Below are positions 32,290-37,235 of a DNA stretch of 64,000 bases, in pieces. The stretch is from Caldisphaera lagunensis DSM 15908 (GTDB lineage: Archaea > Thermoproteota > Thermoprotei_A > Sulfolobales > Acidilobaceae). The stretch's first letter is position 1. The number at the start of each line of letters is the position of its first letter. Below the pieces are notes generated by a model. That model saw only the letters and a program-made list of their open reading frames with translations, had not been told where the DNA came from and did no database searches. The stretch covers positions 1,426,001 through 1,490,000 of the forward strand of contig NC_019791.1 of NCBI RefSeq assembly GCF_000317795.1. Reading direction: 5' to 3'. The translations under genes were made by a program, and so were the position numbers.

Positions 32290-32721
32290 TTATTCTACAA
32301 TAACATTAATTCCAATTAGAGCAAGCCATTGGGATATAACATTTATTGCTTCATCAATATTATTGTAGCCATTTTTTTCCAAAATTTCTCTTAATTTTTC
32401 TATATTAATTTGATTCTTTTTTGCACTAGATATTATGTCTTTAAATGGTTCTGCATTTTTGATCAATTTTTTCATAATAATTCTCATATCTTTATTTTCA
32501 GCCTCTTCAATTTTTTTACCAATTTCTGTAACAATTAAATCTCCATTTGATTGCTTCACTAATCCAATTATTTCAGCAGCCTTTATTACATGTGGTAATA
32601 AATCTATATCAACATCTAGCATTTCATCTAGCCTTGATGAATCTACTTTTCCACCAATGGAATTCAAATACTTTACTAGCCCAATTACTTGATCAACATA
32701 AACTAAGGGGAATTGATCCAT
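32290..32721 (-). CDS. AAA-associated C-terminal domain protein
   Basis: A 143-residue protein with the stand-alone domain usually found at the C-terminus of archaeal ABC-type ATPases (AAA_assoc_C). Characteristic residues: QFPLVYVDQVIGLVKYLNSIGGKVDSSRLDEML, DLIVTEIGKKI and the C-terminal INVISQWLALIGIN. The family is predicted to be regulatory and its partner is unclear. The ATG at 32721 was chosen because homologues begin with xDQFPLVYVDQ; a GTG five codons upstream is possible. It faces the ArsR-like gene and is divergent from dsrE. Confidence 0.8.
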   Translation of the reverse strand: MDQFPLVYVDQVIGLVKYLNSIGGKVDSSRLDEMLDVDIDLLPHVIKAAEIIGLVKQSNGDLIVTEIGKKIEEAENKDMRIIMKKLIKNAEPFKDIISSAKKNQINIEKLREILEKNGYNNIDEAINVISQWLALIGINVIVE

Positions 32722-32841
32722 AAATCCGTTTAACACCTATATAGTATTTTATACTTTGGAATATTTAAATTTATATTAATAGCCAGCAGTTTTTTATGTA
32801 GAGACTACTATATAAGTACTAATTTTCTATTCGTATAGATG

Positions 32842-32900: not shown

Positions 32901-33302
32901 ATGTCTAAGCTCTCTATTATTGTATTTTCGGGAACGGATGATAAACTCATACCTGTAGGGGTAATTGCCCAAGGCGCTGCAGCCTTAGGAATGGATGTTC
33001 AAATATTTGTTACTGGGTGGGCCTTAACTAAATTTATTAAAAAACCAGCGAACCCTGTATGGCCAAAAGAATTCGAAAGCATGGTTCCATTATTAATGGA
33101 AGGCATGAAGAAAAATAATGCTCCTTCATGGGCAGATATGTTAAAAGAAGCGAAATCAATGGGAGCAAAGGTCTATGCATGCAGTTTAATGGCATCTGTA
33201 ATGGGATTAAAGAGGGAAGATTTTAACGAATTAGTTGATGATATTGTTGGGGTTGCAACATTTTTACAAAATGCTGAAGGAGGTCAAACATTATTTATTT
33301 GA
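32901..33302 (+). CDS. DsrE family sulfur-carrier protein
   Basis: A 133-residue DsrE/DsrF-like protein that transfers sulfane sulfur between carriers. The N-terminal LSIIVFSGTDDKLIPVGVIAQGAAALGMDVQIFVTGW is the family fold, and VYACSLMASVMGLK holds the single Cys (Cys94), the likely sulfur-binding residue. The ATG at 32901 follows GGTGAGGTG. It is the first gene of the sulfur operon and lies 10 bases before tusA, consistent with handing sulfur to TusA. Confidence 0.9.
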   Translation: MSKLSIIVFSGTDDKLIPVGVIAQGAAALGMDVQIFVTGWALTKFIKKPANPVWPKEFESMVPLLMEGMKKNNAPSWADMLKEAKSMGAKVYACSLMASVMGLKREDFNELVDDIVGVATFLQNAEGGQTLFI

Positions 33303-33312
33303 GGTGAATAAT

Positions 33313-33555
33313 ATGAGTGAAAGCGGAAAAAAAGTAGTTGATGCAAGAGGTTTATCTTGTCCAGGACCTATAACAAATTTAACTAAAGTTTATAGGAATG
33401 CAAAAAATGGTGATGTATTAGAAATTTGGGCCACTGATCCAGGATTTAAGAGTGATATTAAAGCCTGGATTGAAAGAACAAAGAATGAGCTTATAGAATT
33501 AAAAGAGGATAAGGATAAGATAGTTGCTGTAATTAAGATTACAGCTAAGAAATAA
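33313..33555 (+). CDS. tusA: TusA-like sulfur carrier protein
   Basis: An 80-residue sulfur-relay protein. The N-terminal VVDARGLSCPGPITNLTKV contains the conserved CPxP motif with active Cys16. It would carry persulfide sulfur between DsrE and a downstream acceptor. It starts 10 bases after dsrE with a GAGGTG site and precedes the first flavoprotein by 25 bases. Confidence 0.93.
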   Translation: MSESGKKVVDARGLSCPGPITNLTKVYRNAKNGDVLEIWATDPGFKSDIKAWIERTKNELIELKEDKDKIVAVIKITAKK

Positions 33556-33580
33556 TTTTTTTTCTTTGGGATGATTTGAA

Positions 33581-34768
33581 ATGGCAGAAAAAAAGAAATT
33601 TTTAATAGTAGGTGGGGGTTCTGGAGGAGCGATATTAGCTAATTCCTTGACTAAAGAGTTTGATGTAACTGTAATAAATGATACTCCTAATCATTATTAT
33701 TGGCCTCAACTTTTGCAAATTGCATTTAGAAATGATTATTCAAATTTATATAGACCATTGAGTTCTCTTTTACTTAAAGGAGTAAATTTGATTATTGATA
33801 AGGTTAAAAAAATTGATTTACAAGAAAGAACAGTAACTTTAAGTACTAATAAAAATTTGAACTATGATTATATAGCTATAGCCCCAGGTGTTACAATAGA
33901 CCATAAATCAATTGAAGGTAATGAAAAGTTAGTTAACCAATTTGGTGATTTTCATTCAACGCCTGAAAACGCATCCAAGGTTTTTAATGTCGTAAGTAAT
34001 ATGAAGAAGGGTACATTTGTTGTCTCAGTAGGTGATCCATATCATAGATGTCCCCCCTCGCCTTACGAGGGTATTTTGATGGCTGATGAAGTTTTTAGGT
34101 TAAGGGGGGTTAGGGATAATATTAACTTGGTGTTAGCAGTCCCCTATCCAAGAGCTTATCCTGCTGAAACGTTTAATGAGGTTCTTGAGCCCATATTAAA
34201 AGAAAGAGGAATAAACGTGATGACTTTCTTTACGGCCGATAAGGTAGATGTAGATAATAAAAAGATAACATCTCTTGAGGGAGAAGAATTAAGTTATGAT
34301 GCAGCAATTGTTATACCAGTCCATAAAGGGCCTAAAATAGAAATTAAGCCAGAAGAATCTATTAATCAAGATGGTTTTATAAATGCAGATAAATTAACAA
34401 ATCAAATATTAAAATATGATGATGCTTTTGCAATAGGGGATGCATCAACATCAGCAAATGCTAAAACTGGTGTAACAGCTCACTTACAAGCTAAGGTAGT
34501 CGCTAAAAGAGTTTTAGGCTTGGATGCTAAAAATACTGGTAGAACAAATTGTCCAACAGAATTAGGATTTGAGAAAGGCACATTTGTTATAAGCGATTAT
34601 AACCACCCTGCAGCAAAAGTACCAGCAAATACCATAAACTTTATTATGAAAAGACTGTTTGCTGATGCATATTGGGATGTAATAAGACATCCAGAATTTT
34701 GGGATCCAATATTTGATGTTTATTTTGAAAATACGCAACCGGAGATATTATGGAAGATATTTAAGTAA
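33581..34768 (+). CDS. Sulfide:quinone reductase-like FAD flavoprotein (first copy)
   Basis: A 395-residue two-dinucleotide-binding-domain oxidoreductase of the SQR/flavocytochrome c sulfide dehydrogenase family. The N-terminal FAD motif is FLIVGGGSGGAILANSL; the second FAD-contacting motif DAFAIGDAST lies near residue 285. It has only two Cys: Cys157 in HRCPPSPYEG, matching a redox Cys of SQRs, and Cys324 in TNCPTELGFEKG. A C-terminal hydrophobic/amphipathic segment (FIMKRLFADAYWDVIRHPEFW) could dock at the membrane. Quinone reduction with sulfide or a persulfide donor is inferred. Confidence 0.85.
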   Translation: MAEKKKFLIVGGGSGGAILANSLTKEFDVTVINDTPNHYYWPQLLQIAFRNDYSNLYRPLSSLLLKGVNLIIDKVKKIDLQERTVTLSTNKNLNYDYIAIAPGVTIDHKSIEGNEKLVNQFGDFHSTPENASKVFNVVSNMKKGTFVVSVGDPYHRCPPSPYEGILMADEVFRLRGVRDNINLVLAVPYPRAYPAETFNEVLEPILKERGINVMTFFTADKVDVDNKKITSLEGEELSYDAAIVIPVHKGPKIEIKPEESINQDGFINADKLTNQILKYDDAFAIGDASTSANAKTGVTAHLQAKVVAKRVLGLDAKNTGRTNCPTELGFEKGTFVISDYNHPAAKVPANTINFIMKRLFADAYWDVIRHPEFWDPIFDVYFENTQPEILWKIFK

Positions 34769-34778
34769 GGTGATTGTT

Positions 34779-35186
34779 ATGGAAGAAATAAATGAGGCTG
34801 AACTCCAAACTGAAAGCATTGAAAGACTCCTTCATCTTGTTGAGTTATTAAATAACATATTAAAGGATGAGGAGTTGTTAAAGGCAATATCTAAACTTTT
34901 AGTAAGTGAAGAAACATTTTTGGTAGTAGATAGACTGCCTCAATTAATTAAATTAATTGAGAAATTAACAAGACAAGAAAATTTAGAAAAAATTGAATCT
35001 TTATTAGGTTTAATAGAATCGTTAGATAAAGAAACATTAAATAAACTAGGAAATGCTTTATCTGCTATAAAGAATAAAGAAGTAAAGCCAATGTCTTTGT
35101 CTGGATTAATAACTTCACTATCACAACCAGAGGTATCTAAGGGATTAAATTTAATGCTAAATTTGCTAAAAGCCTTAGGATCGTAG
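34779..35186 (+). CDS. DUF1641 family protein (first copy)
   Basis: A 135-residue, mostly helical acidic protein of the DUF1641 family. The segments LLHLVELLNNILKDEELLKAISKLLVSEETFLVVDRLPQL and the C-terminal SLSGLITSLSQPEVSKGLNLMLNLLKAL define it. Family members are co-encoded with oxidoreductases such as SQR or formate dehydrogenase; role unknown. It begins 10 bases after the first flavoprotein and is followed by a second flavoprotein/DUF1641 pair. No cofactor-binding Cys and no membrane helix. A subunit or tethering role is inferred. Confidence 0.85.
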   Translation: MEEINEAELQTESIERLLHLVELLNNILKDEELLKAISKLLVSEETFLVVDRLPQLIKLIEKLTRQENLEKIESLLGLIESLDKETLNKLGNALSAIKNKEVKPMSLSGLITSLSQPEVSKGLNLMLNLLKALGS

Positions 35187-35249
35187 CATAAATATTAATA
35201 ATATTAAAATAATTTTTATATTCCTTTGTCTCTAAATATAGTGTATTTT

Positions 35250-35289
35250 ATTTAGTAAGATTTTTAAAATCGTATAAATATTTAGTAAG
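35250..35289 (+). promoter_or_regulatory. Internal promoter with a 10-base direct repeat before the second flavoprotein
   Basis: ATTTAGTAAG occurs at 35250-35259 and 35280-35289, flanking the TATA-like GTATAAATATTT (35272-35283). The spacing of 30 bases is about three helical turns. This suggests a separate promoter for the second flavoprotein pair and a possible regulator site. Confidence 0.5.
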
Positions 35290-35307
35290 TAGGATTGGTG
35301 ATTAGTC

Positions 35308-36489
35308 TTGACTAAAAAAATAGTTATTGCTGGCGGTGGTATAGGAGGTTATATCTCTGCAAAAAGATTAACAGAACAAATTAAAAAGAAAAATATAGAT
35401 GCAGAGGTGTTAGTTGTTAATAAAGATGGATTCCATTATATGCCTCCTTTATTTTTTGATGTTGCATTTAATTATGGAGAACCTGAAGATACGAGAGCAC
35501 CAATAGTTAATATGGAAAAATATGGAATTAAAACAGCAATTGATGAGATTCAGAAAATAGATGCAGCAAATAGGACAGTTATAGGTACAAAGGGCAAATA
35601 TCAATATGATTATTTAGTTGTATCTTTAGGTACAGATATGGGATGGAATGCTTATCCCGGTTTAGATAAAGATGGTGTTCATAACTTTACATTGGAAGGA
35701 GCTTTAGAAATGAGAAAGGCTTTAAGCCAAGTAAAAGATAATTCTAATATAGTATTGTTAGTCCCAGAATTTCCTTATAGATGCGGAATATATCCCTATG
35801 AAGCAGCTCCTATGCTTTCCCTATATATAAAACAAAGAGGTAAGAAAGTAAAAGTTACATTATTAGATCCAATACCTGCACCTATAATGCCAGTTCCAAA
35901 TGGAGGATTAGGTCCTGAAATATCAAGGTTTATAAAAGAAACGTTAGATGAATATGGAGTAGAATATGTACCAAATGCAAAGCTAAGAGAAGTTGATGTA
36001 CAAAAGAAAGCAGTTGTTACAAGTGCAGGCGAATTTAAATATGATTTATTAGTTAAGGTTCCACCACCAAGACTACCAAAAGCATTAGAAAATAGTGAAG
36101 GTTTTGTATTTAAGCCAGATCCTAGATGGTCTCCAGCTATGCCAAGGACCATGAGACATCCACAATATGATGATGTATATATGGCCGGAGAACATAGCTT
36201 ACCAACAATAGGAATTGGATTAGCTGGAGTATTTGTTGAATCTATGGCTATAACTGCTACCGGAAATATAATAGCTGACTTAACAGGGTTTGCGCCAGCT
36301 CAACCCTATAGTCCAGTAACATGTGTTGGTTATGCTGGAGAAAAGGGATGGATGGGTACATGCGAAGTACCATTTGATGAACAAAAAGGTATGTATGTTC
36401 CAAAATGTTATTTTGTAGGCAAATACACAGTAGGAAGATTATTAAAACAAAGCTTTTATGGAGGTTGGATTGATTCTTTAAAATTCTGA
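35308..36489 (+). CDS. Sulfide:quinone reductase-like FAD flavoprotein (second copy)
   Basis: A 393-residue homologue of sulfide:quinone reductases, only distantly related to the first copy. The FAD motif is IVIAGGGIGGYISAKRL. Cys159 in FPYRCGIYPYE is at the conserved redox position. Cys339, Cys352 and Cys367 lie in the C-terminal region that holds the third SQR Cys in the family. The C-terminal VGRLLKQSFYGGWIDSL is amphipathic and may bind the membrane. It starts at a TTG preceded by GGTGAT. Confidence 0.88.
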   Translation: MTKKIVIAGGGIGGYISAKRLTEQIKKKNIDAEVLVVNKDGFHYMPPLFFDVAFNYGEPEDTRAPIVNMEKYGIKTAIDEIQKIDAANRTVIGTKGKYQYDYLVVSLGTDMGWNAYPGLDKDGVHNFTLEGALEMRKALSQVKDNSNIVLLVPEFPYRCGIYPYEAAPMLSLYIKQRGKKVKVTLLDPIPAPIMPVPNGGLGPEISRFIKETLDEYGVEYVPNAKLREVDVQKKAVVTSAGEFKYDLLVKVPPPRLPKALENSEGFVFKPDPRWSPAMPRTMRHPQYDDVYMAGEHSLPTIGIGLAGVFVESMAITATGNIIADLTGFAPAQPYSPVTCVGYAGEKGWMGTCEVPFDEQKGMYVPKCYFVGKYTVGRLLKQSFYGGWIDSLKF

Positions 36490-36499
36490 GGTGAGAAAA

Positions 36500-36940
36500 A
36501 TGGCAGAAAATAATGTAGAGGAAGTTTCACCTGAAGTTCAGGCTCAAACTATTGCTCAATTATTAAATTCAATAGCAGCTCTTAAGAAAAGCGGTTTACT
36601 TGGTTTGTTGAACTATTTAGCAGAAAAATCTGATGATACATTCTTAACGGTTGCTGATGATCCAGTTTTAATGAGATTAGCAGGCTTACTAGCTTCTCTA
36701 GGTAGAGGAATAGAAAAGGTCGATGGGACACAATATGCTAAGGCTAAAATGACAATGGAAGATTTAACAAATTGCGCATTTAATGCCCTAGGAAATATAG
36801 ATGTGACAAAGGAAAGAAAATTAGGTCTGTTTGGTTTAATGAGAGCTTTAGGAGATCCAGATGTTTCTCAAGGATTAGGAATTCTTATTGATTTAGCTAA
36901 AGGATTGGGTGCTTGCGCCAAATCTAAGAAATCTCAATAA
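36500..36940 (+). CDS. DUF1641 family protein (second copy)
   Basis: A 146-residue helical DUF1641 protein, paired with the second flavoprotein 10 bases upstream. The C-terminal LGLFGLMRALGDPDVSQGLGILIDLAKGLG is the family signature and aligns with the end of the first copy. A single N-terminal region EVQAQTIAQLLNSIAALKKSGLLGLLNYL precedes it. Two Cys (one in LTNCAFNAL, one near the C-terminus) are not shared with the first copy. The role is inferred to be a flavoprotein partner. Confidence 0.85.
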   Translation: MAENNVEEVSPEVQAQTIAQLLNSIAALKKSGLLGLLNYLAEKSDDTFLTVADDPVLMRLAGLLASLGRGIEKVDGTQYAKAKMTMEDLTNCAFNALGNIDVTKERKLGLFGLMRALGDPDVSQGLGILIDLAKGLGACAKSKKSQ

Positions 36941-37029
36941 ATATTAAAATAAAGAGTATTAATTATTTTCTTTTTAATTTTGTTTCAGTAGTATTTTTAA
37001 TCCTAAGATAAGAAACAAGTATATGCGGA

Positions 37030-37138
<109 letters not shown>

Positions 37139-37235
37139 CCACACCCATAATGGGCTCCACACATCATTTTTAAGATAATACTAATAACCCCGGGCTCTAA
37201 CTTTACTTTTTGCAGTGGAGAGGTGGCATAGGAAT

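Follow-up and report, generated by a model that had tools for sequence, protein, structure and literature searches.

The DNA analyzed here (the window) is a 64,000-nucleotide stretch of the complete 1,546,846-bp genome of the thermoacidophilic archaeon Caldisphaera lagunensis DSM 15908. It carries six plus-strand genes in the order dsrE, tusA, FP1, D1, FP2 and D2, so that a flavoprotein gene (FP1, FP2) is twice followed by a gene of the DUF1641 family (D1, D2). Does this cluster encode one relay in which DsrE and TusA feed both flavoproteins, as the original prediction held, or does it join separate systems? The results described below show that dsrE2B-tusA-FP1-DUF1641 and FP2-DUF1641 are distinct modules lying side by side. 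They probably act as two independent sulfide-oxidising flavoprotein modules, each with a DUF1641 protein as membrane/quinone-coupling subunit.

The predicted gene content, order and common direction were confirmed with Pfam (DrsE_2, TusA, Pyr_redox_2/FCSD_central twice and DUF1641 twice), and both flavoprotein-DUF1641 gaps measure exactly 10 bases. The features are as follows.

32901..33302, plus strand: dsrE, DsrE2B-like, single conserved Cys94 (PF13686, 82.7 bits)
33313..33555, plus strand: tusA, carrier Cys16 in a CPxP motif (PF01206, 73.8 bits)
33581..34768, plus strand: FP1, assigned from Pfam, alignment and tree to type III sulfide:quinone oxidoreductase (SQR); Cys157, Cys324, Phe335, Phe360
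34779..35186, plus strand: D1, DUF1641 partner of FP1, without cysteine (PF07849, 36.8 bits)
35187..35307, no strand: 121-bp spacer between the modules; it holds a TATA-like TATAAAT (35273-35279) and, ahead of the FP2 start, GGTGA
35308..36489, plus strand: FP2, SQR/flavocytochrome-c-like flavoprotein with a TTG start; Cys159, Cys339, Cys352, Cys367
36500..36940, plus strand: D2, DUF1641 partner of FP2; Cys92 (codon 36773-36775) and Cys139 (codon 36914-36916) (PF07849, 48.6 bits)

The identical gene order was found again in independently collected genomes, which excludes chance as the cause of the arrangement.

The cluster is composed of two separate modules

Homologous loci fetched from other genomes are labelled L followed by a number (e.g. 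L112). In the order, 117 genomes were searched for DUF1641, and the gene neighbourhoods in 60 fetched stretches were read. FP1 was accompanied by DsrE in 10 of 11 of these loci and by TusA in 7 of 11. Neither gene was present in 18 of 24 FP2 loci, and the remaining six have them only through an adjoining FP1 module. Because these loci had been picked by DUF1641, the test was rerun from the flavoprotein side. An FP2 profile search of the order gave 28 core FP2 genes, all of them with DUF1641 directly downstream. When about 85,000 species genomes were scanned for FP1, 80 loci were obtained, which were grouped by taxon from their record titles. DsrE and TusA were found beside the FP1-type genes of 42/50 Thermoproteia-type, 10/14 Thermoplasmata, 3/3 Micrarchaeota, 5/5 bacterial and 8/8 Caldarchaeia loci. 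DUF1641 stood beside 46 of the 50 Thermoproteia-type genes, two of the four exceptions being loci truncated at contig ends; it also adjoins Thermoproteales FP2-like genes. The DUF1641 pairing is thus conserved in Thermoproteia-type loci and core FP2 genes when gene order is compared.

The two modules also vary in their relative placement. L044 and L101 carry the FP2 module in inverted orientation with respect to FP1, tusA is located with the FP2 module in L101, and Acidilobus has a tusA gene elsewhere in the genome. Origin by tandem duplication of one flavoprotein-DUF1641 pair was rejected, FP1 and FP2 being on opposite sides of the SQR tree. No fusion of a flavoprotein gene with DUF1641 was noticed among the labelled open reading frames (ORFs) of the DUF1641-selected and FP1-scan loci. 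FP1 homologues are divided into two ORFs in L135 and L152 (Vulcanisaeta distributa JCM 11216; an uncultured archaeon).

In the window, the TATA-like element is located 29-35 bases upstream of the FP2 start, as read from the sequence. Because the 121-bp gap between D1 and FP2 holds this element, FP2-D2 may have its own promoter.

FP1 is a predicted type III SQR

FP1 can be assigned to the type III SQRs with good confidence because of its redox cysteines, its match to the quinone-site phenylalanines and its place in the Caldivirga clade. In profile comparison, Cys157 and Cys324 are aligned to the redox cysteine pair of human SQOR, and both are invariant (11/11). Phe335 and Phe360, equally invariant (11/11), are the equivalents of Phe337 and Phe362 in the Caldivirga enzyme. 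The Caldivirga orthologue L112, which was equated with the studied enzyme by residue numbering, has Phe at exactly 337 and 362; it also has Leu at 379, a position reportedly described in Lencina 2013. In the type III SQR characterised from C. maquilingensis, Phe337 and Phe362 belong to the quinone site (PMC9666304). FP1 shares with this enzyme the length class and the equivalents of C159/C326 and F337/F362, and Caldivirga orthologues sit in a DsrE-TusA-SQR-DUF1641 operon too. The FP1 tail, the place where type III SQRs have C-terminal amphipathic membrane helices, shows a hydrophobic moment of 0.45 at 358-375.

In the tree, the FP1 proteins of the window and of Acidilobus group with those of Thermoproteus, Vulcanisaeta and Caldivirga, in a supported clade with L112, L107 and L103; the other Acidilobaceae FP1 are separate. 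This clustering with Thermoproteales and not with other Acidilobaceae suggests transfer of FP1, and the placement fits a secondary juxtaposition of the two modules. Its sequence identity is 89% with the homologue in Caldisphaera sp. KMA_Bin23 and about 49% with those of Caldivirga.

FP2 is a distant SQR/flavocytochrome-like protein

The redox cysteine shared by the two flavoproteins (Cys157 and Cys159) had been recognized correctly, but the description was incomplete: FP1 also has Cys324, and FP2 has Cys339, Cys352 and Cys367. Given these different cysteine sets and the separate clades, the predicted difference in specificity is plausible. FP2 Cys159 and Cys339 align with the redox cysteine pair of the Aquifex and Acidianus SQRs. 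The AlphaFold model of FP2 (pLDDT, predicted local distance difference test, 91.6) has SQR 3hyv and flavocytochrome c sulfide dehydrogenase (FCSD) 5n1t as its best fold matches, and contains one C-terminal helix (376-392). FP2 forms its own clade on the type I/V/FCSD side of a tree that does not include types IV and VI and in which, with long branches, deep joins are uncertain. It shares fold and first redox cysteine with FCSD and type I SQR but differs from them by the additional Cys352 and Cys367, the single modelled C-terminal helix, the DUF1641 partner and its own clade. Sulfide would be a candidate substrate for such a protein.

Cys339 is absent from 6 of 24 FP2 homologues. The sub-clade L053, L061, L079, L081 and L084 lacks Cys339, Cys352 and Cys367 jointly, as does, separately, L054; judging from these homologues, the C-terminal trio is lost in the Ignicoccus-containing clade. 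In several genomes an FP2 with the trio is retained together with one that is without it. Iho_0673/0672 of Ignicoccus hospitalis go up 5- and 10-fold when the organism is co-cultured with Nanoarchaeum (PMC3149612); this pair was taken to be the FP2-DUF1641 pair of L061, matched by its 385-aa length. In one genome (G007), the FP2 paralogues L054 (5114-6292) and L055 (6696-7943) have identical blocks in their N-terminal halves that resemble gene conversion, and one of the two is without the C-terminal trio.

DUF1641 proteins resemble quinone-coupling subunits

Both D1 and D2 exceed the PF07849 cut-off of 21 bits. When profiles of the D1 and D2 classes were compared with the PDB, the same four solved proteins headed both lists: ForE1 (8rqz), HucM (7uus), YjlC (9snk) and an 'NDH-2 membrane coupling protein' (9pxk). 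E values for ForE1, HucM and YjlC were 8.9e-6, 7.8e-5 and 0.0014 with the D1-class profile and 4.9e-5, 0.008 and 0.0065 with the D2-class profile; no convincing PDB sequence match beyond the four was obtained with either. DUF1641 was reported in 2021 as a formate dehydrogenase partner subunit: ForC1 depends on ForE1 to reduce menadione, and ForE1 is most likely also required to bind menaquinone (PMC8808070). HucM brings menaquinone from the membrane (PMC10017518), and YjlC is paired with YjlD, an NDH-2 flavoprotein that shares its superfamily with SQR. Because the profiles match these solved quinone-coupling subunits, the proposal that DUF1641 is a dedicated docking subunit appears well supported at the sequence level. 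As in ForCE formate dehydrogenase, Huc hydrogenase and YjlD-YjlC NDH-2, a small DUF1641-related subunit adjoins a quinone-reducing enzyme; here, however, the partner is an SQR, and the D2 cysteine pair is not in the aligned ForE1 stretch.

The conserved pairing described above points in the same direction, as does the correlation between flavoprotein and DUF1641 distances (Mantel r 0.82-0.88, with shared ancestry not removed and contributing to the value). Swapping paralogues between FP2 subclasses gave a poorer partner fit in 3 of 4 genomes. DUF1641 also follows type V (Acidianus-type) SQR genes in five of the six loci inspected.

FP2-linked DUF1641 proteins contain two cysteines, at -26 to -28 and +20/+21 from the core, in 30/30 sequences of the first two sets; this pair was found in 0/11 Sulfolobales FP1-linked DUF1641 proteins. 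In the D2-class alignment (A3), Cys92 is present in 22/22 sequences and Cys139 in at least 90%. Most DUF1641 proteins of Thermoproteales FP2-like loci have the pair, and in two loci of family f20 (L193, L197) it is absent with FP2 kept. A strict rule by which DUF1641 has cysteines exactly where TusA is absent was rejected, as L161, L163, L167, L168 and L170 have both; the type V SQR partners (neither) and f20 (cysteines gone, FP2 kept) break it as well. It is a long shot that Cys92 and Cys139 of D2 take part in sulfur chemistry, either as a persulfide acceptor replacing TusA/DsrE or as a second thiol for FP2 enzymes without Cys339 (FP2b). If they did, the coupling subunit would carry both quinone and sulfur.

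DUF1641 genes occur in other surroundings too. In Acidilobus, L039 (6297-6854), L043 (6584-7207) and L046 (6449-7075) encode DUF1641 proteins that have the FP2-type cysteine pair and whose N-terminus is rich in Pro/Ala, with no flavoprotein; they adjoin a transporter-like cluster (family 5 solute-binding protein in L043). A long DUF1641 gene is found in the sHdr region of Sulfolobaceae (L068, 6336-7589; similar in L060, L077, L087, L089 and L092), flanked by lipoate-ligase/radical-SAM genes and LpdA-DsrE3A-DsrE2B-TusA; its product is a possible quinone-coupling subunit of the sHdr system. In L069 (5036-9013), also from Sulfolobaceae, a formate-dehydrogenase-like gene, DUF1641 and fdhD are consecutive, an order like that of the ForCE type, and genes of similar sizes are seen in L058, L072 and L076.

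DsrE and TusA are likely sulfur acceptors

Cys94, the only cysteine of the window DsrE, is invariant in 91/91 homologues, and the TusA carrier cysteine in 89/89. DsrE was assigned to DsrE2B and not to DsrE3A (Cys-X7-Cys) from its single cysteine, its tusA neighbour and its similarity: the Sulfolobaceae DsrE2B proteins encoded before tusA, its closest relatives in that family, score 123-130 bits. In the SQR reaction sulfide is oxidised and sulfane sulfur is released, and because of this chemistry TusA is a likelier acceptor than donor. TusA persulfide as an electron donor, which had been suggested earlier, seems unlikely on the same ground and because the window DsrE is of the DsrE2B type: the DsrE2B of Metallosphaera cuprina is described as unreactive with all sulfur compounds tested, and TusA and DsrE3A as reactive with tetrathionate only (PMC4175335). 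The same data call for caution about the mechanism favored below.

The same paper described in 2014 a TusA-SQR-DsrE4 linkage in Sulfolobaceae (M. cuprina Mcup_1722-1724). There, too, tusA and dsrE genes adjoin an SQR gene, and in the Sulfolobaceae loci L066, L071, L074, L086 and L090 collected here DUF1641 follows. The M. cuprina genes differ from the window in gene order, in SQR branch and by having DsrE4, not DsrE2B; DUF1641 is not mentioned for them in the text consulted.

As predicted, no heterodisulfide reductase (hdr) genes lie in the cluster, so that the hdrC1B1A-hyp-hdrC2B2 (sHdr) arrangement is not found beside dsrE-tusA. An sHdr system elsewhere in the genome was also rejected, the CCG-domain proteins being glycolate/lactate-type oxidases and a membrane LdhH/TfrB-like protein. 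The lone COX1 match is NorB-like; a reading without terminal oxidase was nevertheless discarded, as two cytochrome bd subunit I genes are present. A search of the genome for an NrfD-type subunit of polysulfide reductase gave none.

Proposed mechanism and alternative explanations

In the mechanism that we favor, FP1 would oxidise sulfide at its Cys157-Cys324 centre and pass the electrons via flavin adenine dinucleotide to a membrane quinone, with D1 as the membrane/quinone dock. The sulfane sulfur left would probably be taken up by DsrE2B/TusA as a protein-bound persulfide. FP2-D2 would carry out a related oxidation of sulfide or a thiol without dedicated carrier, so that electrons would have a second, independent way into the quinone pool. 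Each DUF1641 protein would couple its flavoprotein to membrane and quinone in the way of ForE (formate dehydrogenase), HucM (Huc hydrogenase) and YjlC (NDH-2), and cytochrome bd could re-oxidise the quinol.

Several observations weigh against this mechanism. DUF1641 accompanies the DsrE-TusA-SQR operon in 0/3 Micrarchaeota, 0/5 bacterial and 0/8 Caldarchaeia loci. Most Thermoplasmata operons (12/14) lack it as well, the two with DUF1641 (L123, L124) having it on the opposite strand. A diverged DUF1641 behind Caldarchaeia FP1 was rejected, because the small ORFs there are ArsR-type helix-turn-helix (HTH) genes by eye and gave no DUF1641 profile match. The PDB matches of the DUF1641 profiles are individually weak (E 9e-6 to 0.01), and the D2 model is all-helical, of low confidence (pLDDT 70) and without significant Foldseek match. 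Finally, the Caldivirga type III SQR is reportedly active as a purified single protein (Lencina 2013). This activity and the DUF1641-free operons indicate that an SQR of this type can reduce quinone without DUF1641. The same activity would suit a DUF1641 that serves as assembly or regulatory factor with no quinone coupling, as would the stand-alone genes near ABC transporters (L043, L039) and in the sHdr/lipoate region (L068). We consider this role unlikely, in view of the tight one-to-one gene pairing, the correlated divergence with the partners and the relationship to solved coupling subunits.

The chemistry could also run backwards, with quinol driving the reduction of polysulfide or sulfur supplied by DsrE-TusA in a sulfur-respiring host. 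Caldisphaera and Ignicoccus are sulfur-reducing lineages, an NrfD-type subunit is missing from the search results, and an FP2-DUF1641 pair goes up in the Ignicoccus co-culture. This direction is nonetheless quite improbable: the type III SQR that was studied oxidises sulfide, quinol is a weak reductant for sulfur, cytochrome bd is available to drain it, and aerobic acidophile lineages carry the same module. A single relay in which DsrE-TusA hands persulfide as substrate to both flavoproteins could account for the clustering of all the genes, seen in the window and also in several Caldisphaera/Acidilobus relatives, and for the tusA beside the FP2 module of L101. We regard it as very unlikely, since DsrE and TusA go with FP1 and are missing from most FP2 loci, FP2-D2 is inverted or separate in relatives, and the grouping of the window/Acidilobus FP1 with Thermoproteales fits secondary juxtaposition.

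Earlier links of DUF1641 were to formate dehydrogenase, hydrogenase and NDH-2; in the present loci it comes after SQR genes of several separate branches across Thermoproteota. If the proposed coupling is correct, an uncharacterised family gains a role in the oxidation of sulfide that can be tested. Work on SQRs has treated them as single monotopic proteins; were a native coupling subunit to exist, studies of activity and membrane binding of archaeal SQRs would have used incomplete enzymes. The DsrE-TusA-SQR linkage further suggests a route in which a protein carrier takes the sulfane sulfur away from SQR and no free polysulfide is released. A search for literature pairing DUF1641 with 'sulfide quinone oxidoreductase', which did not extend to subscription papers and preprints, found none, nor did any of nine DUF1641 papers have SQR as its subject to judge by the titles; priority is not claimable.

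Neighbouring genes

In the Caldarchaeia-type loci L149, L152, L154, L158 and L160, an ArsR-like HTH gene replaces DUF1641 after DsrE-TusA-SQR. Upstream of dsrE in the window, a divergently transcribed gene (32290-32736, minus strand) encodes a 148-aa PF09821 (AAA_assoc_C) protein, perhaps a regulator; ORFs of similar size occupy this divergent position in the Acidilobaceae loci L033, L036, L041, L044 and L050. Just downstream of D2, at about 37028-37142 of the window, a tRNA-like sequence (GGGCCCGTAGCTCAGCC ... GGCGGGCCCGCCA) was recognized by eye, with an apparent intron after the anticodon loop CTTTTAA.

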